From a virus: a stretch of 25,424 nucleotides of DNA. The translations under genes and the position numbers were made by a program. Position 1 is the first letter of the stretch; each line of letters begins with the position of its first letter. Shown here piece by piece: positions 1-10,013 of the stretch. The notes under the pieces were generated by a model that saw only the letters and a program-made list of their open reading frames with translations, was not told where the DNA came from and searched no databases. The stretch spans positions 1 to 25,424 of the IMG/VR virus record IMGVR_UViG_3300021962_000594. One strand, given 5' to 3'.

Positions 1-11
1 GTCTCTATATC

Positions 12-79
12 GAGGCGTGGCATCTTATAATCGTCTCCAGACACTTCGTGTCCTCCACCGATTCAGCCTGCCACTTCTC
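12..79 (+). other. Nested inverted repeats, possible structured RNA
   Basis: Four paired segments nest inside one another: GAG 12-14 with CTC 77-79, GTGGC 17-21 with GCCAC 70-74, AATCG 29-33 with CGATT 59-63, and GACAC 40-44 with GTGTC 48-52 around a TTC loop. This gives one long interrupted stem. It has no tRNA-like T-arm or anticodon arm. Its function is unknown, and a chance arrangement is possible because each helix is short. Confidence 0.35.
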
Positions 80-80
80 T

Positions 81-108
81 GTAGCTGTGTCGCAAGCTCC
101 TACGCTAC
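81..108 (+). repeat. Hairpin family copy A (conserved loop TCGCAAGCTCCT)
   Basis: GTAGC at 81-85 pairs with GCTAC at 104-108, enclosing TCGCAAGCTCCT at 90-101. The same 12-base word occurs in the loops of two other hairpins about 400 and 500 bases downstream, with unrelated stem sequences. This copy is the most divergent: it lacks the TAG before the word, and its stem is only 5 bp. Confidence 0.5.
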
Positions 109-150
109 CCCCTTGCTTTATTTTTTTGTGTCTGTCTCTTGAACACATAA

Positions 151-233
151 TGCAACAAGTTGCAAGCAGCAAGCTGCTGTGTCCGCTAACAAACCTACCA
201 TATATGCAGCAAGCTGCAAGATACTTCGTATCT
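151..233 (+). repeat. Cluster of small hairpins with CAAG or TTC loops
   Basis: Three perfect 5-bp stems each close on a CAAG loop: TGCAA/TTGCA (151-164), AGCAG/CTGCT (166-179) and TGCAG/CTGCA (205-218). The last is followed without a gap by AGATAC/GTATCT around TTC (219-233). A similar TTC-loop hairpin lies at 40-52. Stems differ while the loop stays CAAG, which recurs again in the hairpin at 830-859. The function is unknown. These could be protein-binding RNA sites or DNA sites. Confidence 0.45.
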
Positions 234-481
234 ATTCAGGTTTGTAAAAATAATAATAATGTGTTTCTATTGTTCTACCATATCGTCGGTAAACACGTAA
301 ACCTAACGTCCAATTTATATTTCCACAAAGTTTTGTTCACGTCTAAGTGCAACAGCTATATCTCCCTGCGGTCGTATATCTGTAAGCAACTATCCGCTCC
401 AAACTCTTTGCTCCAATAAAATATGTACATTAAGGTTTACTTGTCAAATCAATCGTTTGTTGCTAACAAAAATTCTTCTAA

Positions 482-519
482 CATGATACACATAGTCGCA
501 GGCTCCTTGTGTATCTATG
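482..519 (+). repeat. Hairpin family copy B (8-bp stem, 15-nt loop)
   Basis: GATACACA at 485-492 pairs perfectly with TGTGTATC at 508-515 around the 15-base loop TAGTCGCAGGCTCCT. CAT at 482-484 and ATG at 517-519 can extend the stem past one bulged T. A competing pairing, CATAG 491-495 with CTATG 515-519, is also possible and exists in copy C as well. On the minus strand the loop reads AGGAG, nine bases, ATG, so the repeat could instead be a sequestered minus-strand ribosome binding site. Confidence 0.6.
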
Positions 520-588
520 CCCATAACAATTTTTATCATCAACTGGCACAATCGCTTTGACAGCAAGCCGACGACTACACAAACCCAG

Positions 589-623
589 AGATCCACATAG
601 TCGCAAGCTCCTTGTGGTCTATG
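589..623 (+). repeat. Hairpin family copy C (same loop, changed stem)
   Basis: CCACA at 593-597 pairs with TGTGG at 613-617 around the 15-base loop TAGTCGCAAGCTCCT, and AGA 589-591 with TCT 618-620 extends the stem past a bulged T. The loop matches copy B at 14 of 15 positions. The stem differs, and its changes occur on both sides so that pairing is kept. That pattern suggests selection for the folded form. Confidence 0.6.
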
Positions 624-735
624 CTGTGTTTGCTTGCACAGGTGTATGGGAACAAAAAGAATCCACATTAATATTATTTAATTACTTTAGTGTGGTTCAA
701 GTAATCGCAATTGTCTACATGTTAGGAGGTAAAAA

Positions 736-870
736 ATGTGGCAAATCGACGAATACGTAACAGGTAACTTAGTTGACGACTTAGTGAGTCAACTTTGCAA
801 CCTTTGCAATGCAAAAGTTGCAACTAATCAGCTAGAAACACACAAGTGTGTCTCTAGCTTAGTGGGATAA
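736..870 (+). CDS. Small Cys/His protein or leader peptide, 44 aa
   Basis: A very strong Shine-Dalgarno site (TTAGGAGGT, 722-730) lies six bases before the ATG. The same GTTAGGAGGT string precedes the next two larger genes, so this frame is probably translated. The product has an acidic first half and then C21-x2-C24, H36 and C38, a spacing that could hold one zinc ion. I do not recognise a family. The 3' half of the gene folds into two strong hairpins (796-822 and 830-859), so it may also act as a leader peptide or attenuator controlling the operon. It is the first gene of the early rightward set. I am fairly sure that it is translated but have no evidence for its role. Confidence 0.55.
   Translation: MWQIDEYVTGNLVDDLVSQLCNLCNAKVATNQLETHKCVSSLVG
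796..859 (+). promoter_or_regulatory. Two adjacent hairpins inside the 44-aa ORF
   Basis: TGCAAC-TTTGC pairs with GCAAA-GTTGCA (11 bp, one mismatch, AAT loop, 796-822). AGCTAGA-ACACA pairs with TGTGT-TCTAGCT (12 bp, one mismatch, CAAG loop, 830-859). No T-run follows the second stem, so it is not a simple terminator. A ribosome translating the short ORF would melt both, which allows attenuation-like control of the genes downstream. Confidence 0.45.
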
Positions 871-875
871 TTATC

Positions 876-1019
876 ATGGATAATTACATACCACTAATTG
901 GTTGCTTATTCATGTCGCTTATGGCGACACATCTAGTGTTCAGTATCCAAGCGTGGATACTGCGAACACTAGAAAAATTAGATAAATGGTATAATACAAC
1001 TGTTAGGAGGTTGAAATGA
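876..1019 (+). CDS. Small membrane protein, 47 aa
   Basis: The product is short, with a hydrophobic stretch at about residues 5-28 (IPLIGCLFMSLMATHLVF and onward) followed by a basic tail (RTLEKLDKWYNTTVRRLK), so a single-span membrane protein with a cytoplasmic basic end is likely. Its stop overlaps the ATG of the next gene in an ATGA junction, typical of translational coupling. The ribosome binding site is weak (GGGAT about 10 bases upstream). Part of its sequence is probably also promoter and Shine-Dalgarno sequence for the next gene (987-1010). No family was recognised. Confidence 0.55.
   Translation: MDNYIPLIGCLFMSLMATHLVFSIQAWILRTLEKLDKWYNTTVRRLK
987..995 (+). promoter_or_regulatory. 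Candidate extended -10 promoter
   Basis: TGGTATAAT matches an extended -10 element perfectly. No good -35 is seen, which extended -10 promoters tolerate. Transcription would start near 1002, just ahead of the Shine-Dalgarno site of the gene at 1016, and would drive the unknown pair, the amidoligase and the amidotransferase. Confidence 0.4.
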
Positions 1020-1309
1020 GTAGATTATCATTTGATGACTGTGATCCACGCTATGCAAGTGCAGAACGTGACACGTCTAATGTCAGAAATACGTTAGCAC
1101 TTATCGGCACATATGCCGACAAGCGTAACGCAATCGTCAATGTAATTCAAATGGAATTACTTGACGATAATGACTTCGTCAAATACACAAGTATTTGCGA
1201 TACATACGAAAAAGTCATACGTGACCTAGTTCGTATCTACAACGCCGATTCGGACAATGTCCAAATCGACGTTGAATCAATGTTGGCATTTGTAAAGTTA
1301 GGAGGTTAA
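1016..1309 (+). CDS. Unknown early protein, 97 aa
   Basis: I do not recognise this protein. It is acidic, looks mainly helical, has no membrane segment or signal peptide, and contains two cysteines (in DDCDP and SICDTY). The start is fixed by TTAGGAGG six bases upstream and by the ATGA overlap with the small membrane protein. The next gene starts two bases after the stop, with its own AGGAGG inside this gene's last codons, so the two are made together. Its position directly before the amidoligase/amidotransferase pair makes it a possible partner or substrate. That is guilt by association only. Confidence 0.75.
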   Translation: MSRLSFDDCDPRYASAERDTSNVRNTLALIGTYADKRNAIVNVIQMELLDDNDFVKYTSICDTYEKVIRDLVRIYNADSDNVQIDVESMLAFVKLGG

Positions 1310-1311
1310 AT

Positions 1312-1566
1312 ATGCCAAAAGTACACGTTGACATTCAAACACAATCAGTCGTGTTTGATTATAAAGAATTGCAATCGTTGATTGCTAATTCTTTGCGTGA
1401 TGAAGTACAAGTACTTCCACGCTTTATCAATATTATCGACTGTGTAATGCGTACCCCAGCCCCAAATTATAAGGCAGAGGTAACGTTCAATATACAAATT
1501 AATTTTGCAGATTTACGCAGAACTAATTCAGATAACTCAGAGGAGTATGCTAATGACAACTACTAA
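1312..1566 (+). CDS. Unknown early protein, 84 aa
   Basis: No family was recognised. The pattern of alternating hydrophobic residues (KVHVDIQTQSVVFDY at the start, AEVTFNIQINFADL near the end) suggests a beta-rich fold around a central helix. A strong AGGAGG lies about seven bases upstream. The last 14 bases overlap the start of the amidoligase gene, whose Shine-Dalgarno site (GAGGAG, 1540-1545) sits inside this gene. The C-terminus (SDNSEEYANDNY) is acidic and polar, probably disordered, and could in principle be an amidoligase target. I have no direct evidence for that. Confidence 0.75.
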   Translation: MPKVHVDIQTQSVVFDYKELQSLIANSLRDEVQVLPRFINIIDCVMRTPAPNYKAEVTFNIQINFADLRRTNSDNSEEYANDNY

Positions 1567-2623
1567 CCAAACCATTGGTTTACCACATGGTGCTATTTCC
1601 TACGGAAATGACGAATGTGGTGAAACATGGTATTACCACGAAGACTGTGCAGATTATCCAAATGTCAGAACAAGTGATTGTGACTGTGGAGAATCATTGT
1701 CAGGCTTTCACGAATGTGAATACAACTGTGAATTAGTTCACAGGTGTGAAAATTGTGAGAACTATGACTGCTATGTCGAAACCGATTATCCACAACTTTG
1801 GAACTATGGTTACAAACCCTTTGGTGGTATGTACCTAGACGTAATCGACGGAGAGTTCAAATGGTTACCCATTTCAACTCTCACTACTTCTAGCCCCATA
1901 GTCATGGGACTAGAACTAGAAGTCGAATATCGTAACGGTAGTGACTTTGATAACACTATGGAGTTTCTAACACAACTCAACGCTGCATTCGGTTCAAAAT
2001 ACAGTACAAGTCCTGTATTTTGCATAGCCAAAGAAGACGCTACAGTTGACGTCGAATTTGTAACTGCACCATTTACGGCAGCAGCTTTCAAGAAAGCTAC
2101 TATCGACCTTAAAATCGCCTTTGCTTACGCAAGAGAGCGATTCAAAGGTTTTTATGCAAACAGTGCAGGTGCACATGTTCACATAAATAAATCAGGCTTG
2201 TCACTTACTACTGCATACGCATGGATTCAGTTTCATTACCAGAATCCAGGATTAATTGCAGATATAGCACAAAGATCAATCGGCGAAGACGCCGAATGGT
2301 GCTATCTGCAAAAACCAAACCACCCTATTGCAGTCATTGCAAAACGTAAAGGTGGTTTTCCTAATCGTGGTGCATTAGCAGATAGTAGCTATACAATCGA
2401 ACACCGCTACTTTCGTAGCAATCTTCGATTTGAACGTATAGCTAAGAACATAGAGTTCTTAGAATCTATGCACAAGTACTTCAACACGTTGACATATCAA
2501 GATATGGCACGTGACGGTGCACATAAGCTATACGCTTATTTAGCACATGTCTCACTCATGAGACATGAGTACGAATACTTATACGACTACTTAGTAGAGA
2601 AAGGATATATCGCATGTGTGTAA
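1553..2623 (+). CDS. Putative amidoligase (GCS/glutamine-synthetase-like fold)
   Basis: This looks like an Amidoligase_2-type COOH-NH2 ligase, which uses ATP to join an amine to a carboxylate. Hallmarks are in order: GLELEVE (119-125) for the acidic metal/ATP strand, a D-x3-D-x-EF...P stretch (162-173), and GAHVH (206-210). The first 75 residues are unusual, with nine cysteines (including CxC at 43-45 and CxxC at 65-68) and several histidines, which suggests a zinc-binding or disulfide module fused to the catalytic part. I chose the ATG at 1553 because GAGGAG lies seven bases upstream. The upstream alternatives at 1505 and 1547 are badly spaced. It overlaps the next gene, a glutamine amidotransferase, by 10 bases, so the two are very probably one enzyme system. 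The substrate cannot be read from sequence. Confidence 0.72.
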   Translation: MTTTNQTIGLPHGAISYGNDECGETWYYHEDCADYPNVRTSDCDCGESLSGFHECEYNCELVHRCENCENYDCYVETDYPQLWNYGYKPFGGMYLDVIDGEFKWLPISTLTTSSPIVMGLELEVEYRNGSDFDNTMEFLTQLNAAFGSKYSTSPVFCIAKEDATVDVEFVTAPFTAAAFKKATIDLKIAFAYARERFKGFYANSAGAHVHINKSGLSLTTAYAWIQFHYQNPGLIADIAQRSIGEDAEWCYLQKPNHPIAVIAKRKGGFPNRGALADSSYTIEHRYFRSNLRFERIAKNIEFLESMHKYFNTLTYQDMARDGAHKLYAYLAHVSLMRHEYEYLYDYLVEKGYIACV

Positions 2624-3456
2624 TCGCACTTTCCCCAATCGGTAACAAACTCGACAAGTCGACTTTGACCGATATGTGGAATACCAATTCAGACGGTGCA
2701 GGTATTAGTTTCATAGATGAAACTAAAACCATACGCACCTACAAAACTCTTGACAAAGACGACTTTGTCAAGATTGCTTTGTCTGTATTCGACAAGTACA
2801 GCGTATCGTCACCGATACTTGTACATTGTCGTATTGCAACTCATGGTTCTGTTTGCCTTGCAAACACTCACCCATTCAACGTTGACAATCATACAGTCAT
2901 GGCACACAACGGCATAATCGACTGTGTCGAAACGCCCGACACGTCGGACATTTCAGACACACGTATGTTCATCAACACATGGTTACGCTACATGCGTCCT
3001 ACGTGGCTTGATGACCAGTACATGCTTGAGTATGTCGGTGACATAATTGGTTGGAGTAAACTTGCGTTTCTCACAACCAATCCGAACCTTCGTAAACAAT
3101 GGTACATTGTTAACGAAAAAGAAGGTTCGTGGTTAGACGGCACATGGTTTTCTAACACAAACCATTGTGGTATTAGTTATAAATACACCAACACTTCCTA
3201 CTTCACAGGACATGGTTGGTATGATAATTATGACACAATTGATGACGAAGATTACTATACTTACTCAACTGTTGAGGACGGTATAGAAATCGGACTGCAT
3301 GAACTCTCAGCCTATTCAGGCTTCGAGATTCAGCAGCTTAAGCGTCTCAGCTATCATGACATCAAAGACTTATTTGAAAGTGAGTTCGGCGGTGTCTGCG
3401 AGTTCACTGCTACGCAGTGGAACTCTTATCTAGTTAAGCACGGTTCCAGTGCTTAA
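2614..3456 (+). CDS. Class II glutamine amidotransferase (Ntn hydrolase)
   Basis: This class hydrolyses glutamine and passes the ammonia to an acceptor or partner. After Met removal, Cys2 would be the N-terminal nucleophile, which also fixes the start. AGAAAGGA lies about eight bases upstream. Family motifs follow: SDGAGI (26-31), HCRIATHG (71-78), NTHPF (84-88), HNGII (98-102) and SDT (114-116), matching the Arg, Thr-His, His and Asn-Gly positions known from GlmS-type glutaminases. The last 130 or so residues are rich in Tyr, Asp and Trp and match nothing I know. No synthase domain is fused, so the upstream amidoligase, whose gene overlaps by 10 bases, is the obvious ammonia acceptor. The stop codon lies inside a perfect 12-bp hairpin. 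Confidence 0.85.
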   Translation: MCVIALSPIGNKLDKSTLTDMWNTNSDGAGISFIDETKTIRTYKTLDKDDFVKIALSVFDKYSVSSPILVHCRIATHGSVCLANTHPFNVDNHTVMAHNGIIDCVETPDTSDISDTRMFINTWLRYMRPTWLDDQYMLEYVGDIIGWSKLAFLTTNPNLRKQWYIVNEKEGSWLDGTWFSNTNHCGISYKYTNTSYFTGHGWYDNYDTIDDEDYYTYSTVEDGIEIGLHELSAYSGFEIQQLKRLSYHDIKDLFESEFGGVCEFTATQWNSYLVKHGSSA

Positions 3457-3460
3457 CTAG
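3430..3460 (+). repeat. Perfect 12-bp hairpin over the amidotransferase stop codon
   Basis: CTAGTTAAGCAC (3430-3441) pairs perfectly with GTGCTTAACTAG (3449-3460) around a 7-base loop. The right arm contains the TAA stop. No T-run follows, so it is not itself a terminator. It may protect the mRNA 3' end or act with the terminator that begins four bases later. Confidence 0.6.
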
Positions 3461-3463
3461 TAA

Positions 3464-3525
3464 CAAACTAAGCTGTTGCAAGATCCGACATTCGTCGGCT
3501 TGCAACAGCAAGTTTGTTTTTTTTT
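3464..3525 (+). terminator. Strong Rho-independent terminator of the early operon
   Basis: CAAACT, GCTGTTGCAAG and CCGAC pair in turn with GTCGG, CTTGCAACAGC and AGTTTG, giving about 22 bp with small bulges and an ATTC loop. Nine T residues follow, then C and more T. It ends rightward transcription after the amidotransferase. Confidence 0.88.
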
Positions 3526-3536
3526 CTTTATCTTGT

Positions 3537-3660
3537 AAAGTTGTTCGTACCTCACAACTTTCCGCTTATAACTCACTCACAAGTTCGTTCGTGACGTTCG
3601 TTCACAAGTTCACTCACTCATTTATTCGCTACACTTCGTTCCGCTCAGTCTCAGACACAA
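3537..3660. repeat. Repeat-rich gap beside the primase gene
   Basis: AAAGTTGT and ACAACTTT form an 8-bp inverted repeat (3537-3544, 3554-3561). GTTCGTTC occurs twice (3583-3590, 3596-3603), separated by GTGAC. CACAAGTTC occurs twice, 25 bases apart (3578-3586, 3603-3611), flanked on both sides by CACTCAC-type repeats. More TTCGTT follows to about 3640. On the minus strand a run of seven T at 3659-3665 could help end primase transcription, but no clear stem precedes it. Direct repeats next to a RepB-type primase make a replication origin plausible but unproven. Confidence 0.4.
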
Positions 3661-3713
3661 AAAAATACCGCAGGGGGGATATTGCAAGGCGTAAAAGTTG
3701 GTATGCGAGTCAG

Positions 3714-4595
3714 CTAAACTGCGACTTTGTGTTTTGCGATTTGTGTCCATAAAGTATTAGGACGAGTAATAAATTTATTCCAAGGTGCGTGCCATATCAA
3801 ACTAAAAACCATTTCAGGTTCGTATACTTTTATTAATTTTCTAATAACAGTAGTAATTAAACTACTTCTATCTATAACACCATGTGCTTTGTACTGCTCA
3901 TCAGATATAGATAACCAATACCTAGCTTCGAGTGGTATCTTGTTCCACTCTTGTGATATTAAACCTTGCCAAGAAACATAATCCAGTAAGGCAGGCATAT
4001 CACTTTCAACATAAGTTGTGTGATTCGATACAACTAAAGGAATAGAATCAAAGTCATCATAGTTAAATACAAAGTCAGGTTCATATCTAACTATCTTTCC
4101 TTGTTGACCACCCCTTTTATAATTTACAGAACCAGGAACCCTCAACACACGTGCTGCGTCCCACGCCCCAGTGTCTGCTTTCAAATGATATGCTAACCTT
4201 CTGTTAACTTCTTGTTGTGTAGATATTTGTATTGTGTCTTCAAGAAGCCAAATTGCTTGCCACCTGTTCCCACTTGTCTCCCAAATAAAATTAGGTTTAG
4301 GAACTATGACAAAACAATCCTCATAGCTGATATCAGTTCTATCCATATCAACATATAAAACTCCGACTTTATCTTTTGCATTAATTGCTTTTCTAGATTG
4401 GTCCGTGTGAAAAGTTAAAGGTGTCCAATAGATATCTGATCCCTGGGACTGATTGCTGATAGCCTTAAGAATACTGCCATAATCACTCCAATCATAACAA
4501 ATTTCTTCCCATTTAGTACCGTTGGTTGCCAACCATACTTTACCACCACCACTGTTAGCCCAAACATGGCTCATTAATTCTATTGTTTGTTTCAT
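3714..4595 (-). CDS. RepB-type primase (archaeo-eukaryotic primase superfamily)
   Basis: This probable DNA primase or primase-polymerase would make primers for phage replication. The catalytic acidic pair is YVDMD (D83, D85). A TSGNRWQAIW motif (107-116) follows where many AEP primases have an S-x-H motif, with Gln at the His position as I recall for RepB-like primases. A third acidic residue, D146, lies in DAARVLRVPGSVNYK. The C-terminal 100 or so residues look helical and may bind DNA. The start follows TTAGGAG by five bases. It is the only leftward gene among rightward early genes, it is divergent from the gene at 4647, and its 3' end faces a repeat-rich gap. No helicase or polymerase is visible, so this may be the main phage-encoded replication initiator. 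Confidence 0.75.
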   Translation of the reverse strand: MKQTIELMSHVWANSGGGKVWLATNGTKWEEICYDWSDYGSILKAISNQSQGSDIYWTPLTFHTDQSRKAINAKDKVGVLYVDMDRTDISYEDCFVIVPKPNFIWETSGNRWQAIWLLEDTIQISTQQEVNRRLAYHLKADTGAWDAARVLRVPGSVNYKRGGQQGKIVRYEPDFVFNYDDFDSIPLVVSNHTTYVESDMPALLDYVSWQGLISQEWNKIPLEARYWLSISDEQYKAHGVIDRSSLITTVIRKLIKVYEPEMVFSLIWHAPWNKFITRPNTLWTQIAKHKVAV

Positions 4596-4615
4596 TTAAC
4601 TCCTAACTATGCTAT

Positions 4616-4621
4616 TATAAT
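4616..4621 (+). promoter_or_regulatory. Candidate -10 box in the divergent intergenic gap
   Basis: A perfect TATAAT lies 26 bases before the ATG at 4647, between the divergent primase gene and the rightward set. I see no good -35, so activator dependence or a different sigma factor is possible. The 51-base gap must also hold the primase promoter or leader. Confidence 0.35.
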
Positions 4622-4646
4622 CTATGTTAATTTATATAGGAGAAAA

Positions 4647-4877
4647 ATGTCTGAGAATACAAAAAAATCTATGGCAGATTTTATGGCTCCAAAGATGCGT
4701 ACCAAATGGTATGTAGACAATAATGAGTTATTTAATCAAGTCATTGATGAAACCATTGAAAATGATTATCCGATATTATACGTTGCAGAGTATCTAGTCG
4801 AGCAGGGCTGTCCATTTGCACTTAAAACAATACAGAAACATGTCAAAACAGAAATCACTAGAAGACTTTCTAAATAA
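4647..4877 (+). CDS. Small protein with possible helix-turn-helix, 76 aa
   Basis: AGGAGA lies about five bases before this ATG, so I prefer it to an upstream in-frame start at 4587 that would run into the divergent primase gene. The C-terminal half (YLVEQGCPFALKTIQKHV) has the spacing of a helix-turn-helix, with a turn at QGCPF and a recognition helix after it. As the first gene after a divergent gap it could be a regulator of the early region, or a DNA-binding partner of the phosphoesterase whose start overlaps its end by 38 bases. The family is not identified. Confidence 0.65.
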   Translation: MSENTKKSMADFMAPKMRTKWYVDNNELFNQVIDETIENDYPILYVAEYLVEQGCPFALKTIQKHVKTEITRRLSK

Positions 4878-6042
4878 GCAAAAGGAAATAGAGGAGCATA
4901 AAACTGCTGCTAAGCAAAAGCACCCTACTGGTTTTGAACCTGGTGTATCGTATAATCCCAACACCAATACTGGATATGTAGTATCTAGACCTACTACTAA
5001 CCCCAATCCCACTTTCGATTCCCTGTTGCGAGAGTGGGGTTGGAATCCAGATGAGTATGAAATCGTAGGTAACTTACACGTTCGCACATGGGATATGAAT
5101 ATGGGTGACGGTGTTAAAGAACAAGCCTGGTATTACAAAGCTGACATCAGAAAAAAGAATCCAGAGAAAGAAGCTGACTTAAAAAGACTTATTGCAGAAA
5201 TTAAGAAACATAAACCTTATAAGAAACCTGCAGTTAAAAAAGGAGTTGGCTTTTTTTATTTTGCTAGTGACTGGCAAATAGGAAAATCTGACGGAGGTGG
5301 ACCACAAGCAACTATAGATAGAGTTAAGTTAAGTCTTGATAGAACTGTTGAAAGGTTAAAAGAGTTAAAAAAACTTGGTGTTGATGTTTCTACTATTTAC
5401 ATAATTTCACTTGGTGATCTAATCGAAGGAGTAACAGGGTTCTACCCTGGACAATCACACAAAGTACAGTTGGATAGATTAGAGCAGATAACGGTAACTC
5501 GTAGATTGTTTCTTGAAGTAGTAACTACTCTTGCAAAGCATGCACCTAAAGTTGTAGTAGGTGGTGTGCCAGGTAATCATGGTCAGAATCGTGGCAGAGA
5601 TAAAAACGTTATAACATCTGAGTTAGATAATGATGACATTGGTATCCTAATTTCATCTGCTGATGCTTTATCATATGGACCATACAATCATGTCAAATTT
5701 ATAATACCTGACGGTCATCATCTCACTTTAGATTGCAATGGTACTGTGATTGGATTTACTCATGGTCACCTTAGTCGTGCTGGTAGCAACCCTGGTGATA
5801 AGTTAATGAACTTTTGGAAAGGTCAAAGTTTTGGATTTCAAAGTTTAGGTGACGCTACTATCCTAGTCTCTGGTCACTATCATCACTTGCGTACTATACA
5901 AGACGGATTAAGAACTTGGTTTCAAGTTCCTTCATTAGATAAGAGTACATATTTCAAAGAACAGTATGGAACTGAAACTATTAATAATGTTTTAACTTTT
6001 ACTGTTGATAAAGACGGTTGGGACAATTTAAAATTATTATAA
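4840..6042 (+). CDS. Calcineurin-like metallophosphoesterase
   Basis: This is a two-metal phosphoesterase of the kind many phages carry, probably a nuclease or DNA-end processing enzyme. Motifs in order: SDWQ (143-146), GDLIEG (192-197), GNHG (245-248), THGH (about 310) and GHYHH (about 350). The first motif has D-x-Gln where most members have D-x-His. The N-terminal 130 residues form a phage-specific extension with charged helical stretches. The gene begins inside the preceding one (38-base overlap). ATG 4840 has no clear Shine-Dalgarno site, and a TTG at 4816 is the alternative, so the start is uncertain. Its location before Rad52-like and SSB-like genes fits a role in recombination or DNA processing. 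Confidence 0.82.
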   Translation: MSKQKSLEDFLNKQKEIEEHKTAAKQKHPTGFEPGVSYNPNTNTGYVVSRPTTNPNPTFDSLLREWGWNPDEYEIVGNLHVRTWDMNMGDGVKEQAWYYKADIRKKNPEKEADLKRLIAEIKKHKPYKKPAVKKGVGFFYFASDWQIGKSDGGGPQATIDRVKLSLDRTVERLKELKKLGVDVSTIYIISLGDLIEGVTGFYPGQSHKVQLDRLEQITVTRRLFLEVVTTLAKHAPKVVVGGVPGNHGQNRGRDKNVITSELDNDDIGILISSADALSYGPYNHVKFIIPDGHHLTLDCNGTVIGFTHGHLSRAGSNPGDKLMNFWKGQSFGFQSLGDATILVSGHYHHLRTIQDGLRTWFQVPSLDKSTYFKEQYGTETINNVLTFTVDKDGWDNLKLL

Positions 6043-6085
6043 TATCTTGACTAAAATTCTACCTGTACTAAACTTGAATCAAGTT
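6038..6085 (+). promoter_or_regulatory. Candidate -10 box and inverted repeat before the recombination genes
   Basis: TATAAT (6038-6043) overlaps the phosphoesterase stop codon. AACTTG and CAAGTT (6071-6085) form a 6-bp inverted repeat with a 3-base centre just before the AAGGAGG of the next gene. No convincing -35 is present. Together they could be a promoter with an operator, or a short mRNA hairpin. Confidence 0.3.
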
Positions 6086-6098
6086 ATAAGGAGGTAGT

Positions 6099-6356
6099 AT
6101 GCCAGAAGTATTCGATTCACTTCCAAAAAGTGTTTATGAAAAATCTGACAAAAGATCACTTGCTGAACGTATGGGATACATGGACATGATGTCTAAGTTT
6201 CCTGGCAAGTGGGTTAAGTTACTTTCTGTTAAGAAAAGCAAAAGACAGAAAATATACAATATGGCTTCTTACTTTAATAAGCAACACCCTGAGTGTGAGT
6301 TTAGAAGTATAAGCAAAGATACGACTGTCAATTTGTATGGGAGGATAAATGAATAA
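6099..6356 (+). CDS. Conserved-looking unknown phage protein, 85 aa
   Basis: An excellent AAGGAGG lies about five bases upstream. The protein is basic in its middle (KWVKLLSVKKSKRQKIYNMASYFNK) and ends with a short beta-like stretch (DTTVNLYGRINE). This layout resembles small proteins I have seen beside phage recombination genes, but I cannot name the family. Its stop overlaps the next start by eight bases, making it the first gene of a four-gene recombination set. A nucleic-acid-binding role is plausible from the basic helix. Confidence 0.75.
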   Translation: MPEVFDSLPKSVYEKSDKRSLAERMGYMDMMSKFPGKWVKLLSVKKSKRQKIYNMASYFNKQHPECEFRSISKDTTVNLYGRINE

Positions 6357-6903
6357 TCTGTACACAGATGATGTTTTAGATTTAGCTAAAGAAGTAGTTA
6401 AGTCTGAGACTATAGAGAACACTGAGATAGCATTTGAGATTGACGCTATGAAAGATGAAGACATAGCTATTGCTCGTATACCTATTTCAGCTGCTAAGAC
6501 TGCCACTACAAAAATCAATAATTATGCTGACGTACAGTTAGCTAAAAAGATTGAAGAAAGTGGCACGTTCAAACTTAATGGCACTGTGTTTCATGTAAAC
6601 AAAGGATATAAGTACAAGACATTAGACTTGCACGGTTTCCTTAATTGGTTACTTGAAGGTTCAGCTAGTGTAAGTTTGGTTTCTGATTTAGCAGCAATTC
6701 TTGGTAACACATTTGTACCTAAGTTAAGAGGACTAGATGCTGTAGCTGAAAAGCGTGGCATGAGTGCAAATGTTGCAAGAGATACTTTCTTAGAGAAAGT
6801 TATTGATGATGAATCAAAACTAGCAGTCATTAATTGTGACACAGCTAGTGCTCCTAGGTGGGCAGTCAATATGAAAGACGGTGATAGAATTGAAAAATCT
6901 TAG
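6349..6903 (+). CDS. Unknown recombination-set protein, 184 aa
   Basis: I do not recognise a named family. The N-terminal 45 residues are acidic. The middle includes ISAAKTATTKINNYADVQLAKKI, probably helical, and then short beta segments (GTFKLNGTVFHVNKGYKYKT). The last 80 residues are again helical. A GGGAGG lies about five bases upstream, inside the previous gene. The stop lies 23 bases into the Rad52-like gene. The context suggests an accessory factor for single-strand annealing or a nuclease subunit, but no catalytic motif is visible. Confidence 0.75.
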   Translation: MNNLYTDDVLDLAKEVVKSETIENTEIAFEIDAMKDEDIAIARIPISAAKTATTKINNYADVQLAKKIEESGTFKLNGTVFHVNKGYKYKTLDLHGFLNWLLEGSASVSLVSDLAAILGNTFVPKLRGLDAVAEKRGMSANVARDTFLEKVIDDESKLAVINCDTASAPRWAVNMKDGDRIEKS

Positions 6904-7315
6904 AGACTTAGCAAAACCTTTTACCAGTCTTGTTAAAAAGGGCAAAGACGCAGGTAAGTTTGGTGACTTCGTTGAACACAGTGCAGTTAACCAAAGGTTG
7001 CTAGCTCATATAGGTCCGTTTAGTCAAAGAGTTTCAGAGATTGTGTATGACATACACCCTCAGTTGGGTCAAGTCTGCACTGGCGTAGTCTTAGAACTCA
7101 CTATGACTATTGACGGCAAGGAGGTTGTTATCCAGGAAGCTGGTGATCTAGACAATCCGTTCGGTAAAGGTAGAACTAATGGCGATAGATTAAAAATGGC
7201 TATTAGTGACGCTTTAAAAAGATGTGCTATGAGAGTAGGTCTAGGACTACATCTTTACGCACAAGATGATTATTTCCTAGACAAATTATTGGAGGATAAA
7301 AATGGTACAAGCTAA
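6881..7315 (+). CDS. Rad52-like single-strand annealing protein
   Basis: The protein probably pairs complementary single strands during phage recombination. Recognisable features are NLRDLAKPF near the N-terminus, FVEHSAVNQRLL (about 30-41), and the conserved C-terminal segment NGDRLKMAISDALKRCAMRVGLG followed by LHLYAQDDYF (roughly 104-136), which is characteristic of the compact Rad52/Sak-type phage annealing proteins. The start is a GTG overlapping the previous gene by 23 bases, with a TTG at 6890 as an alternative. Neither has a clean Shine-Dalgarno site, so coupling to the upstream gene is likely. The next gene encodes an SSB-like protein, the usual partner of such proteins. Confidence 0.72.
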   Translation: MIELKNLRDLAKPFTSLVKKGKDAGKFGDFVEHSAVNQRLLAHIGPFSQRVSEIVYDIHPQLGQVCTGVVLELTMTIDGKEVVIQEAGDLDNPFGKGRTNGDRLKMAISDALKRCAMRVGLGLHLYAQDDYFLDKLLEDKNGTS

Positions 7316-7739
7316 AAAAATTAGTTTAACAACTGATGATATATCAGGTAATGGTGGTGCTAATCAAATTACCCCAGGTGATTATGAAGCAACAATCGTA
7401 GAAGTAGAAGACCATGTGGCTCAAAGTGGTAACGAAGGCTGGAAGTGGACTGTGCAAGTTGGAAGACTTAAACTAAGAACTTTCACTATGTTCACTGCAA
7501 ATGCAAAATGGAAACTTGTTGAGTTAATGGGTGCACTAGGGATACCTATGCAAGAAGGTGAGATTAGTTTCAATCCTCAAGATTATGTAGGTAAGCCTGT
7601 AGGTGTAGAGTTGATTGAAGATAAGAACGATACTCGTTACTTAGAAATCAACAAATTCTTCCCTGTTGGTACTAAGCCAGTAACTTCAGTTAGTGAAGAT
7701 GCTGAAAACAAGGTTGACAAATCTGAGGTACCTTTTTAA
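7302..7739 (+). CDS. SSB-like protein (DUF669-type), 145 aa
   Basis: This is probably a phage single-strand DNA binding protein. The body has a beta-rich pattern (GDYEATIVEVEDHV, WKWTVQVGRLKLRTFTMF) and a KWKLVELMGALGI segment resembling DUF669-type proteins found next to phage recombinases. The C-terminus ends in acidic residues and then VPF (DKSEVPF), much like the D-x-IPF tip with which bacterial SSBs recruit partners. The start has GGAGG seven bases upstream. It overlaps the Rad52-like gene by 14 bases and is the last rightward gene before the bidirectional terminator. Confidence 0.68.
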   Translation: MVQAKKISLTTDDISGNGGANQITPGDYEATIVEVEDHVAQSGNEGWKWTVQVGRLKLRTFTMFTANAKWKLVELMGALGIPMQEGEISFNPQDYVGKPVGVELIEDKNDTRYLEINKFFPVGTKPVTSVSEDAENKVDKSEVPF

Positions 7740-7791
7740 AATAAGAGTATCTAAGTTTATGGCAACCTCCTAACAAGTTGACATAATGATA

Positions 7792-7821
7792 AAAAAACCC
7801 TCTAGCAATAGAGGGTTTTTT
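7792..7821. terminator. Bidirectional terminator between convergent gene sets
   Basis: AAAAAACCCTCTA and TAGAGGGTTTTTT form a perfect 13-bp stem around a GCAA tetraloop. Both strands therefore show a G+C-rich stem followed by a T-run. It sits between the last rightward early gene and the end of the leftward late operon, and can serve both. Confidence 0.93.
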
Positions 7822-7852
7822 GTTTTATATATATGAAAGAGATAACTATGAA

Positions 7853-7927
7853 TTACATCTTTTTGCGAGATTTTCTCACAACTTTTTTCTTAGCTTTCTT
7901 TTTGTTTGATAACTTTGTACCGTACAT
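7853..7927 (-). CDS. Tiny Lys/Arg-rich peptide, 24 aa
   Basis: The ATG shares its A with the TAA stop of the holin gene (TAATG), the same coupling seen throughout the late operon, so translation is likely. The peptide has 11 lysines and 2 arginines in 24 residues (KKKAKKKVVRKSRKK). It is the last gene before the terminator. No family was recognised. A nucleic-acid, membrane or lysis role is possible. A second basic mini-gene is found at 17859. Confidence 0.5.
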   Translation of the reverse strand: MYGTKLSNKKKAKKKVVRKSRKKM

Positions 7928-8115
7928 TATTTTCCAATCTTTTTCTTAGCAAACTCTTTAAGAACAACCATAGCTGCAGATGCACCTGACATAGCAGCTA
8001 ACTGCCATAGTTCAACATTAACATCTACTAATGGTCCAACTGTCAAGACACCAAGAAATGCTTGAACAAATGTCCAAAGAGTTTTTTCCAATACTATTTT
8101 ATATTCTTCACTCAT
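7927..8115 (-). CDS. Holin (r1t-like), 62 aa
   Basis: This small membrane protein would open the inner membrane so that the amidase can reach the wall. Two hydrophobic segments (about residues 12-29 and 38-52) flank a short polar loop, and the end is basic (KEFAKKKIGK). The 'KTLWTFVQAFLG' segment resembles r1t-type holins. Its start overlaps the amidase stop in an ATGA junction. Confidence 0.75.
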   Translation of the reverse strand: MSEEYKIVLEKTLWTFVQAFLGVLTVGPLVDVNVELWQLAAMSGASAAMVVLKEFAKKKIGK

Positions 8116-8723
8116 TTAATTAGCCTTCCTAATTTTAATTTCGTTTCGATATTTTCTAGTTTAGCAATAATTGTGTCTAGTTTCTTATTTATAAACTGTG
8201 GGTGTACCATTTCAGGTGGACTATCGTTAGTGGCTTCTATCGGTTTATTTTTATTATCAACCCACTCAGATAATTGTGGACCAGGACAAGTTGTAGTTTT
8301 AAAATCCAAATGTTTCTTTAGCTCTCCACCTATAGTTTTGTGTAATTTTTCTATAGACTTTAAAGCAGCTTCACTAGCCATTGTTCTATCTTTACCACCT
8401 AACCAACACACAGAATAATAGTGCTTATTACCTTCGTTAGTCCCTTGTGATGCTGGTCTAGCGTTAAAACCTCTACCTTCATATATTTGTCCAGTGTTAC
8501 CAACTAAAAAGCTGTAAGCAATATCGTTCCAGTTTCTATCTACTTGATGTAATCTTTGAATACTTTTAAGTTGATCTATTTCTGCGTTGTTTCCTATAGC
8601 TCCTGGATAATAAGACCAATGTACAACTAACCCTTTAACTTCACCCATAGAAGCATAAGCTCTAAATGCAGGCTTAGCACCCCACATATCTCTACTTATC
8701 ACATTCACAGTTGATATCTCCAT
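8112..8723 (-). CDS. Endolysin: N-acetylmuramoyl-L-alanine amidase (PGRP/Amidase_2)
   Basis: The enzyme cleaves the bond between MurNAc and L-Ala in peptidoglycan at lysis. The PGRP-type N-terminus RDMWGAKPAF (11-20) is followed by zinc ligands H35 (VVHWS), H138 (KKHLD) and C146 (TTTCPG), with Y70 and the YEGRG motif (81-85). Residues 170-203 look like a charged amphipathic helix, possibly for oligomer formation or wall binding. The start is uncertain. ATG 8723 has no Shine-Dalgarno site, while GTG 8708 has GGAG nine bases before it. Both starts lie inside a tiny cysteine-rich gene, so coupling is likely. The holin follows by ATGA overlap. Confidence 0.92.
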   Translation of the reverse strand: MEISTVNVISRDMWGAKPAFRAYASMGEVKGLVVHWSYYPGAIGNNAEIDQLKSIQRLHQVDRNWNDIAYSFLVGNTGQIYEGRGFNARPASQGTNEGNKHYYSVCWLGGKDRTMASEAALKSIEKLHKTIGGELKKHLDFKTTTCPGPQLSEWVDNKNKPIEATNDSPPEMVHPQFINKKLDTIIAKLENIETKLKLGRLIK

Positions 8724-8781
8724 TCTTACAGTTACATATTCTTATAAAAGAACCGTCATCTTCCACACATATCTTGCACAT
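8692..8781 (-). CDS. Tiny cysteine-rich protein, 29 aa
   Basis: The frame starts two bases after the stop of the upstream small membrane gene and runs into the endolysin start. Six of 29 residues are cysteine in three pairs: C2-x2-C5, C16-x-C18 and C25-x-C27. Such regular spacing in an AT-rich genome is unlikely by chance and suggests metal binding. The strong neighbour spacing supports translation, but no independent Shine-Dalgarno site is visible. Its role in the lysis cassette is unknown. Confidence 0.5.
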   Translation of the reverse strand: MCKICVEDDGSFIRICNCKNGDINCECDK

Positions 8782-8783
8782 AA

Positions 8784-8966
8784 CTACATTATGAACGCAG
8801 CAATAACAAATGCTACTGTTGCCATTAATCCTAATACTTTATTGAAATCTGATTTATCTAATTTGCTGTCTAGCTTTTCATCTAGTTTATCTAACTTTTC
8901 TAATACCATTGCGTTTAACTCCTTCTGTGTAAATCCATTAGCGTATTTTTCAGATGAGTTAGACAT
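8784..8966 (-). CDS. Coiled-coil plus C-terminal membrane anchor protein, 60 aa
   Basis: Residues 14-42 form a heptad-like charged helix (LNAMVLEKLDKLDEKLDSKLDKSDF), followed by one membrane segment at the very C-terminus (VLGLMATVAFVIAAFIM). This resembles XhlA-type proteins that accompany holins and amidases. The start shares a base with the stop of the upstream gene (TAATG). I infer a lysis accessory function. Confidence 0.65.
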   Translation of the reverse strand: MSNSSEKYANGFTQKELNAMVLEKLDKLDEKLDSKLDKSDFNKVLGLMATVAFVIAAFIM

Positions 8967-9106
8967 TATGGTAGGTCGTCCTTAGAGATAAATTCCCATT
9001 CTTTATCCCAATTTCTATGAGATAAATCCCAATCGCTTATTCTTTTAATAAATAAACTAATTTCTTTTAAAAAATAACCTATTAAAAATCCTATTATGAA
9101 ATCCAT
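8966..9106 (-). CDS. Small membrane protein, 46 aa
   Basis: The N-terminus has a single hydrophobic segment (FIIGFLIGYFL) followed by a basic stretch and then a Trp/Asp-rich tail. The stop overlaps the next start as TAATG. No strong Shine-Dalgarno site precedes the ATG, so the exact start is less certain. It probably belongs to the lysis set. The family is not recognised. Confidence 0.5.
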   Translation of the reverse strand: MDFIIGFLIGYFLKEISLFIKRISDWDLSHRNWDKEWEFISKDDLP

Positions 9107-9129
9107 AAACAGGATTATAACATATATGA

Positions 9130-9432
9130 TTAAGCAGGTTTTGGATTATCTGATTTGACTTGTGCTATATGGTCTGCCCAAACAGTAGTTCCATTAACGC
9201 CGTCCCAGTACATCATATCTAACTGGTCAGCGATAGAACCATAAGCCTCTTGTCTAGCTTGTATATAACCAAACTGTTGGTCATTCCATTTGCTATTAGC
9301 AAGGTCTATTACTCTTTGGTCATAATCAGCTTGTGAAAATTCAAGTCTTTCATTATTAACTTGTTTAAATAAAGGTTTAGCAGCTTCAATCTCTGCTGCT
9401 GCCTCTACTTGTAGTTCTTCTAATGTTGCCAT
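9130..9432 (-). CDS. Small virion-associated protein with DQLDMMYxD motif, 100 aa
   Basis: The first 60 residues are helical and charged. The C-terminal half has QEAYGSIADQLDMMYWDGVNG and ends VKSDNPKP. This R/EAY-x-I-x-DQLDM...W...VK...PKP arrangement recurs at the ends of tail-associated proteins in marine phages as I remember them. GGAGAG lies about four bases upstream. It stands between the fibre genes and the lysis genes. A fibre-assembly or tail-tip role is my inference. Confidence 0.6.
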   Translation of the reverse strand: MATLEELQVEAAAEIEAAKPLFKQVNNERLEFSQADYDQRVIDLANSKWNDQQFGYIQARQEAYGSIADQLDMMYWDGVNGTTVWADHIAQVKSDNPKPA

Positions 9433-9464
9433 ATCTCTCCTATCTTACTATATATTTCTTATAC

Positions 9465-10013
9465 TTACTTCTTTAAACCATATAAAGTAAATGTTCCACT
9501 ATCAATATTATTTGCACTATCAATTTGAAAAAATAATCCATTAACACTAGAAGTGCTTGTAAATACACCACCACCCTGATTTCCATAATGCTCACTACCT
9601 GCATAATGTGAAGTTTCAAAAGTAATAAATGTGTATTCCCCTGAATTATTTGCATTAAAAATGTATATAACTGCATTGAAATTTCCTGTTGTTGCATTTA
9701 TAAAGCTACCTGACACATCCCATTGTGTAGCATTAGTATTATTGTTATTATCAAAAGCACCACTTGTTTTTAAACCTTTAGCTGCCCAATCATAATTAGC
9801 AGTTGAGTTATCATTTCCACCCTCTGTAACTCTACACTCTAAATTTTCAGCAGTATCAGGAGATAAACCATTTATCTTAACCATATACACATCATAAGTG
9901 CTATCAATAGAAGCATTTAATCCACTACTACCACTACTTCCACCACCAAGAATTACACTTGCTACTGGACTTGATATTGTAAATTCATCAACCTTTATTA
10001 AGCTACCTGCCAT
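9465..10013 (-). CDS. Tail-fibre-like beta protein, paralogue 3 of 3
   Basis: The protein shares a layout with the two genes upstream: a beta-rich N-terminus, a YDVYMVKINGL segment (as in YDVYYVSI and YNVHLLTV), a central YTFITFET (YSFV in the others), an N-G-x-x-F (NGLFFQI) and a C-terminal TLYGL. Such proteins recur in marine phage tail regions and are probably lectin-like receptor-binding or fibre-tip units. A glycine/serine-rich linker (GGGSSGSSG, about 24-32) is specific to this copy. TTAGGAG lies upstream. Confidence 0.65.
   Translation of the reverse strand: MAGSLIKVDEFTISSPVASVILGGGSSGSSGLNASIDSTYDVYMVKINGLSPDTAENLECRVTEGGNDNSTANYDWAAKGLKTSGAFDNNNNTNATQWDVSGSFINATTGNFNAVIYIFNANNSGEYTFITFETSHYAGSEHYGNQGGGVFTSTSSVNGLFFQIDSANNIDSGTFTLYGLKK

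Follow-up and report, generated by a model that had tools for sequence, protein, structure and literature searches.

Phage modules combining an amidoligase with a glutamine amidotransferase (GATase) were reportedly predicted as early as 2009, if not before (Iyer et al., cited in PMC10580990). The closest described counterparts of the locus reported here are the following. The simple pairs: gp105-gp106 of mycobacteriophage Marvin, for which the laboratory strain M. smegmatis mc2 155 is a host, and their equivalents in MEP401/402 (OM43 phages, Zobellviridae) encode the same two families, in the same order and adjacent to each other, as in our window. The EgtA/EgtC couple: this comprises a GCS-like ligase and a class II GATase-fold gamma-glutamyl hydrolase, which are the same two folds as those of the window pair. 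The MurT/GatD couple of Gram-positives: here a Mur ligase, MurT, is joined by a class I-type GATase, GatD. This couple performs a two-subunit, glutamine-fed amidation of the peptidoglycan precursor (PMC3267633) and is a functional analogy only, not being homologous to the window pair. The podovirus cassettes: RIO-1-like and LUZ24-like phages possess larger cassettes with an amidoligase and a glutaminase (PMC5498523, PMC3890496, PMC11945000), which have been assigned by their authors to peptidoglycan modification (PMC5498523, PMC11945000). Cassettes of the RIO-1/LUZ24/phiEco32 type contain amidoligases, a GATase, a gamma-glutamyl cyclotransferase (GGCT) and an ATP-grasp protein, with the amidoligase and class II GATase on the replication side; the window phage has the same placement but only two of these enzymes.

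The amidoligase and GATase have been annotated in the OM43 phages (PMC10580990), and that paper cites, for phiEco32, a cell-wall modification against superinfection. Blocking of a defence or exclusion of other phages has likewise already been proposed for such pairs (PMC10580990, PMC5498523), and we found no experimental test of an amidoligase/GATase pair in the open-licence literature. Given Marvin, the OM43 phages and the podovirus cassettes, the pair as such is prior art, and the window pair is a new, divergent and minimal two-gene member: compared to MEP401/402 and Marvin, its ligase is ~20% identical and shares with theirs a Cys-rich part, while its glutaminase is ~28-35% identical with a different C-terminal tail.

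The operon and its surroundings

The window, i.e. the whole stretch of 25,424 nucleotides analysed here, is the 25.4-kb record (IMGVR_UViG_3300021962_000594) of a marine tailed phage. Its relevant features are:

736-3456, plus strand: operon of six tightly spaced ORFs (from the sequence and its ORFs)
736-870, plus strand: ORF of 44 aa with a CxxC motif, upstream part of the operon
876-1019, plus strand: hydrophobic ORF of 47 aa, upstream part of the operon
1016-1309, plus strand: ORF of 97 aa, upstream part of the operon
1312-1566, plus strand: ORF of 84 aa, upstream part of the operon
1553-2623, plus strand: amidoligase (GS/GCS-fold carboxylate-amine ligase), 356 aa; from motifs, fold and the Amidoligase_2 matches of relatives
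2614-2623, plus strand: 10-base overlap ATGTGTGTAA, with the ligase stop and the glutaminase start Met-Cys-Val
2614-3456, plus strand: stand-alone class II glutamine amidotransferase, 280 aa; from GATase_4, phrog_25883, catalytic set and fold
3472-3525, plus strand: strong intrinsic terminator, with a U tract 3' of a long hairpin (-26.5 kcal/mol, z -6.4)
4.8-7.7 kb, plus strand: recombination/replication block of exonuclease, annealing protein and SSB-like protein
Minus strand: terminase, portal, maturation protease, capsid and tape measure

Both ORFs lie where the earlier note had placed them, with an overlap of exactly 10 bases. The amidoligase start is taken as the ATG at 1553, with in-frame alternatives at ATG 1547 and TTG 1505, and the terminator lies directly 3' of the glutaminase gene and closes the operon. 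That the pair dominates an early operon, as the note had it, is borne out in extent, the two genes occupying 1.9 kb of 2.7 kb; 'early' would be a reading of position, from the small promoter-proximal ORFs and the nearby recombination/replication genes. The 97-aa and 84-aa operon products have no significant Pfam or PHROG match, and PADLOC returned no match.

The window has no match to phages at the DNA level. Its terminase is nearest to that of a Pontimonas phage and its endolysin to those of Streptomyces phages, two weak clues, each pointing to an actinobacterial host. A scan of genome contigs with the glutaminase profile recovered no relative, and it thereby offers no clue to a prophage or host. 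Two further observations concern genome layout. A RepB-like primase gene (3714-4595, minus strand) sits between two plus-strand gene blocks, a position kept in two relatives (L019 and L026). Positions 1-9909 are 99.99% identical to IMGVR_UViG_3300021961_000296, the late genes of which are entirely different (a 2473-aa protein and another terminase and portal region); either the entire structural module was exchanged recently, or one of the two records is a chimeric assembly.

Upstream of the operon, positions 1-735 contain no conserved ORF, yet are strongly conserved in relatives (L013:3408-4125, L019:4469-5239, L075:17926-18682, L072:3521-4277). We consider this region a candidate for a large structured RNA, ~700 nt long and oriented divergently from the operon, the minus strand being favoured. 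On an alignment of five sequences from approximately three lineages, RNAalifold predicts 211 pairs at -164 kcal/mol for the minus strand, and 38 of these pairs show compensatory changes; 15 column-shuffled alignments give -80 +/- 7 kcal/mol and ~11 compensatory pairs (maximum 17). The signal is lower on the plus strand (-121 kcal/mol, 26 pairs), and the single-sequence z is about -7.5 on both strands. The region matches no Rfam family, and it might also be read as an element acting at the DNA level, for example a replication origin. Seven IMG/VR contigs contain its 5' motif, and six of them also bear this amidoligase family in the loci analysed. Within it, a 27-nt direct repeat, 93% identical between its copies at 485-511 and 590-616, is predicted to form a hairpin in each copy.

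Folds and catalytic residues of the two proteins

By itself, the window amidoligase scores 15.1 bits to Pfam Amidoligase_2, below the cut-off of 22, and the label hence needed testing. A tblastn search with it against phages found nothing, so that homology is argued from profiles, motifs and fold; a sequence search of the PDB returned no match either, and a profile of 11 sequences (A1) was too divergent for a scan of the collection. Among 21 aligned relatives, 18 match Amidoligase_2 at E <= 0.01 (best 8.4e-12). Across 11 divergent phage homologues G119-E121-E123, D162, H208-H210 and T281-E283-R285 are invariant and E168 is at least 90% conserved; the corresponding motifs GxExE, D..E, HxH and TxExR are invariant or at least 90% conserved also in 21 broader homologues. 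The acidic ATP/metal residues, the lack of which the earlier note had named as one point against its interpretation, are present. An AlphaFold2 model of modest confidence, built with 21 sequences (mean pLDDT 67; low over residues 1-80 and in parts of 244-272, higher in the catalytic part), has PafA, GS, YbdK and GCL as its top Foldseek matches (E from 5e-4), and the best 50 VIA-align rows are all GS-superfamily enzymes, with Z up to 9.7. Together, these structure matches and invariant motifs confirm that the first gene encodes a GS/GCS-fold amidoligase with all the motif residues of the family.

The catalytic domain spans approximately residues 93-350 and is preceded by the Cys-rich part at approximately residues 20-75, which varies in length, although all 21 relatives keep C65 and C68; it probably binds zinc. 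We considered a catalytic role for this N-terminus and rejected it, given its variability and its being far shorter in the L019 relative. The recurrence of this part, together with PafA bound to Pup being the top Foldseek match, is what would be expected if the pair amidated a protein or peptide tail, be it of the host or of the phage, or formed an isopeptide bond with it, much as PafA joins Pup to lysine, with the Cys-rich domain recruiting the target. We regard this as decidedly improbable, given that the PafA match (E 5e-4) barely betters those of glutamine synthetases, that VIA-align puts synthetases first, and that no Pup-like or tail substrate was found beside the pair.

The second protein comprises a domain at residues 1-185 and a lineage-specific C-terminal tail, and matches Pfam GATase_4 at 29.5 bits (cut-off 23) and phrog_25883 at 6e-19. 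The class II set is complete: the Cys nucleophile C2, the glutamine-binding R73 and D115, and the oxyanion hole N99-G100, all invariant in 11 divergent phage homologues. This upholds the earlier reading of an intact Cys2 and full motif set and confirms the protein as a class II glutaminase.

The structural model of the glutaminase, on the other hand, fits two enzymes equally well, the gamma-glutamyl hydrolase EgtC at Z 13.5 and the glutaminase of GlmS at Z 13.6, and fold comparison accordingly fails as a means of telling an ammonia donor from a gamma-glutamyl hydrolase. This tie, along with membership of GATase_4 and a match to the EgtC profile TIGR03442 at 1e-4, lends itself to a different chemistry, in which the ligase would join the gamma-carboxyl of glutamate to an amine on a small molecule or peptide as a handle, and the second protein would be a hydrolase removing it, with GGCT as an alternative eraser. 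Models for such a handle are EgtA/EgtC (in ergothioneine synthesis), PuuA/PuuD and BtrJ/BtrG. As the glmS and phage aminotransferase profiles fit the glutaminase better than that of EgtC, and there is no clear motive for a phage to ligate a group and then undo the ligation, we consider this unlikely, if a serious contender.

Linkage, gene overlap and the exchange of GGCT for the glutaminase

Searching IMG/VR with the glutaminase profile, the ligase not being used, yielded 44 loci. Of these, 41 have an amidoligase ORF immediately 5' of the glutaminase gene and running into its start; the overlap measures 10 bases at 33 loci, 1 base at seven and 20 bases at one. This is the adjacent pair that the earlier note proposed to look for in viral metagenomes. 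Of the remaining three, one is a contig that breaks off shortly before the glutaminase gene; the other two are records of a single larger type of phage with non-adjacent ligases, the ligase lying 1.5 kb upstream of the glutaminase in one record. Since the 44 loci collapse to 26 clusters at 95% glutaminase identity, seven at 70% and three at 50%, the 41 paired loci are not 41 independent events. Independent pairs are nonetheless found in Marvin, MEP401/402, MW202733, MW202828, the fecal MT835576, the Christensenellales, Bifidobacterium, C75C1 and Stenotrophomonas phages, and further on a Mycobacterium intracellulare plasmid, and each followed-up glutaminase homologue in annotated phages and the plasmid has an amidoligase adjoining or neighbouring it. 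Acinetobacter phage vB_AciJM_313 (PX050566.1), which has both families, holds two or more distinct amidoligase-GATase pairs, one of them with a copy at each end of the record.

The distances between ligases and between glutaminases correlate across 19 lineages (Mantel r 0.55, P 0.001) and across 13 deeper ones (r 0.41, P 0.012), and the correlation drops in the deepest 11 (r 0.27, P 0.07). Both genes evolve under purifying selection: comparison with the nearest relative gives dN/dS of 0.28 and 0.51, and comparison with two further relatives, for which dS is high, gives 0.22-0.27. The 10-base overlap reappears at ~30-35% protein identity in the OM43-type phages MEP401/402 and on the mycobacterial plasmid, and it probably serves translational coupling. 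The dN/dS values of 0.22-0.51 for both genes and the recurrence of the overlap in unrelated phages together indicate that the pair is more than a chance juxtaposition.

On the plasmid (NZ_CP015269.1; L089:4084-5756), the overlap is ATGTGCATAG, in the same place, and the annotated GATase start (5037) probably lies 36 bases too far downstream. We also considered a functional role for the Cys-Val or Cys-Ala at the ligase C-terminus and rejected it: the frame of the overlap explains these residues, ATG TGT... of the glutaminase being read as TGT GTG TAA.

The linkage is one-way: the glutaminase almost always occurs with the ligase, while the ligase also occurs without the glutaminase. The earlier claim of gene linkage thus holds insofar as the homologues form a conserved coupled unit, with the qualification that amidoligases also exist without this glutaminase. 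The other arrangements are the following: an amidoligase with GGCT and without such a glutaminase, in Bacillus 055SW001 and Geobacillus GR1; an amidoligase with both GGCT and glutaminase, in Arthrobacter phages Salgado and Ottawa; a glutaminase fused to a C-terminal GGCT domain, in C75C1 and MW202828 (L005:5001-6218 and L010:5001-5897; GGACT 7.5e-18 and 2.7e-21); and an amidoligase with neither, in Porphyromonas, Clostridioides and Microcoleus records. The GGACT profile detects no GGCT in the window record or related contigs, which may be fragments, and this weighs against a gamma-glutamyl handle in the window phage. Among ten non-structural window proteins scanned (Pfam, PHROG) there is no ATP-grasp protein or second COOH-NH2 ligase.

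That GGCT replaces, accompanies or is fused to the glutaminase, taken with the EgtC tie, keeps the gamma-glutamyl ligase/hydrolase chemistry live. A broader form of it would be a reversible gamma-glutamyl (or amide) mark written by the amidoligase and erased or edited by the class II GATase, GGCT or their fusion, the erasers being partly interchangeable; this we hold to be quite unlikely.

Possible chemistry and substrate

Our tentatively favoured reading, which we put at a little under even chances, is an amidoligase of two subunits that is fed by glutamine and acts on a carboxylate in the cytoplasm that is conserved across many bacteria, with the peptidoglycan precursor as the leading candidate. 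It is suggested by the overlapping genes, the near-obligate presence of the ligase and the intact glutaminase, and the overlap of the genes in distant lineages implies a fixed stoichiometry. Amidation by the pair, of whatever target, would take place in a putative complex: the N-terminal Cys of the glutaminase, exposed after removal of Met1, would hydrolyse glutamine; the freed ammonia would pass to the GS-fold subunit, which, with ATP and Mg2+, would activate a carboxylate and convert it to an amide; and the Cys-rich N-terminal region of the ligase would probably bind the substrate or the glutaminase partner. Relatives occur in phages of both Gram-positive and Gram-negative hosts, including Gram-negative methylotrophs, mycobacteria and bifidobacteria among others, which argues for a widespread substrate. 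An N-terminal Cys nucleophile and the lack of an evident export signal in either protein (by inspection) point to a cytoplasmic site. The stem peptide of the peptidoglycan precursor is favoured since it is common to these cells, is cytoplasmic, and was proposed by authors for the fuller cassettes; its alteration during infection could benefit the phage by shutting out later phages or tuning lysis.

Against this reading stand the equal nearness of the glutaminase fold to a gamma-glutamyl hydrolase and the fading of the distance correlation in the deepest lineages, and the replacement of the glutaminase by GGCT in some related phages speaks against a simple supply of ammonia. We know of no characterised glutamine-dependent enzyme in which a GS-fold ligase works together with a glutaminase of class II. 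Alternatively, the pair could serve auxiliary metabolism, making a small amide or secondary metabolite, or shifting glutamine/ammonia pools, with no macromolecule altered: the authors of the OM43 phage study list both genes as auxiliary metabolic genes (PMC10580990), and their paper cites a secondary-metabolite proposal for Marvin. The coupling of ligase and glutaminase favours directed chemistry over bulk glutaminase action, and no other biosynthetic genes are recognised in the early region by Pfam or PHROG, making this the least probable of the readings.

The one-way dependence of the glutaminase on the ligase, together with its replacement by GGCT or fusion to it, limits the reactions that the pair could carry out. 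In this phage group the two-gene overlapping form lacks the GGCT known from larger cassettes, which opens the core chemistry to direct testing; the pair is also present in Marvin. If the amidoligase does write a reversible mark, this would be a new host take-over chemistry common to phages of very different hosts.
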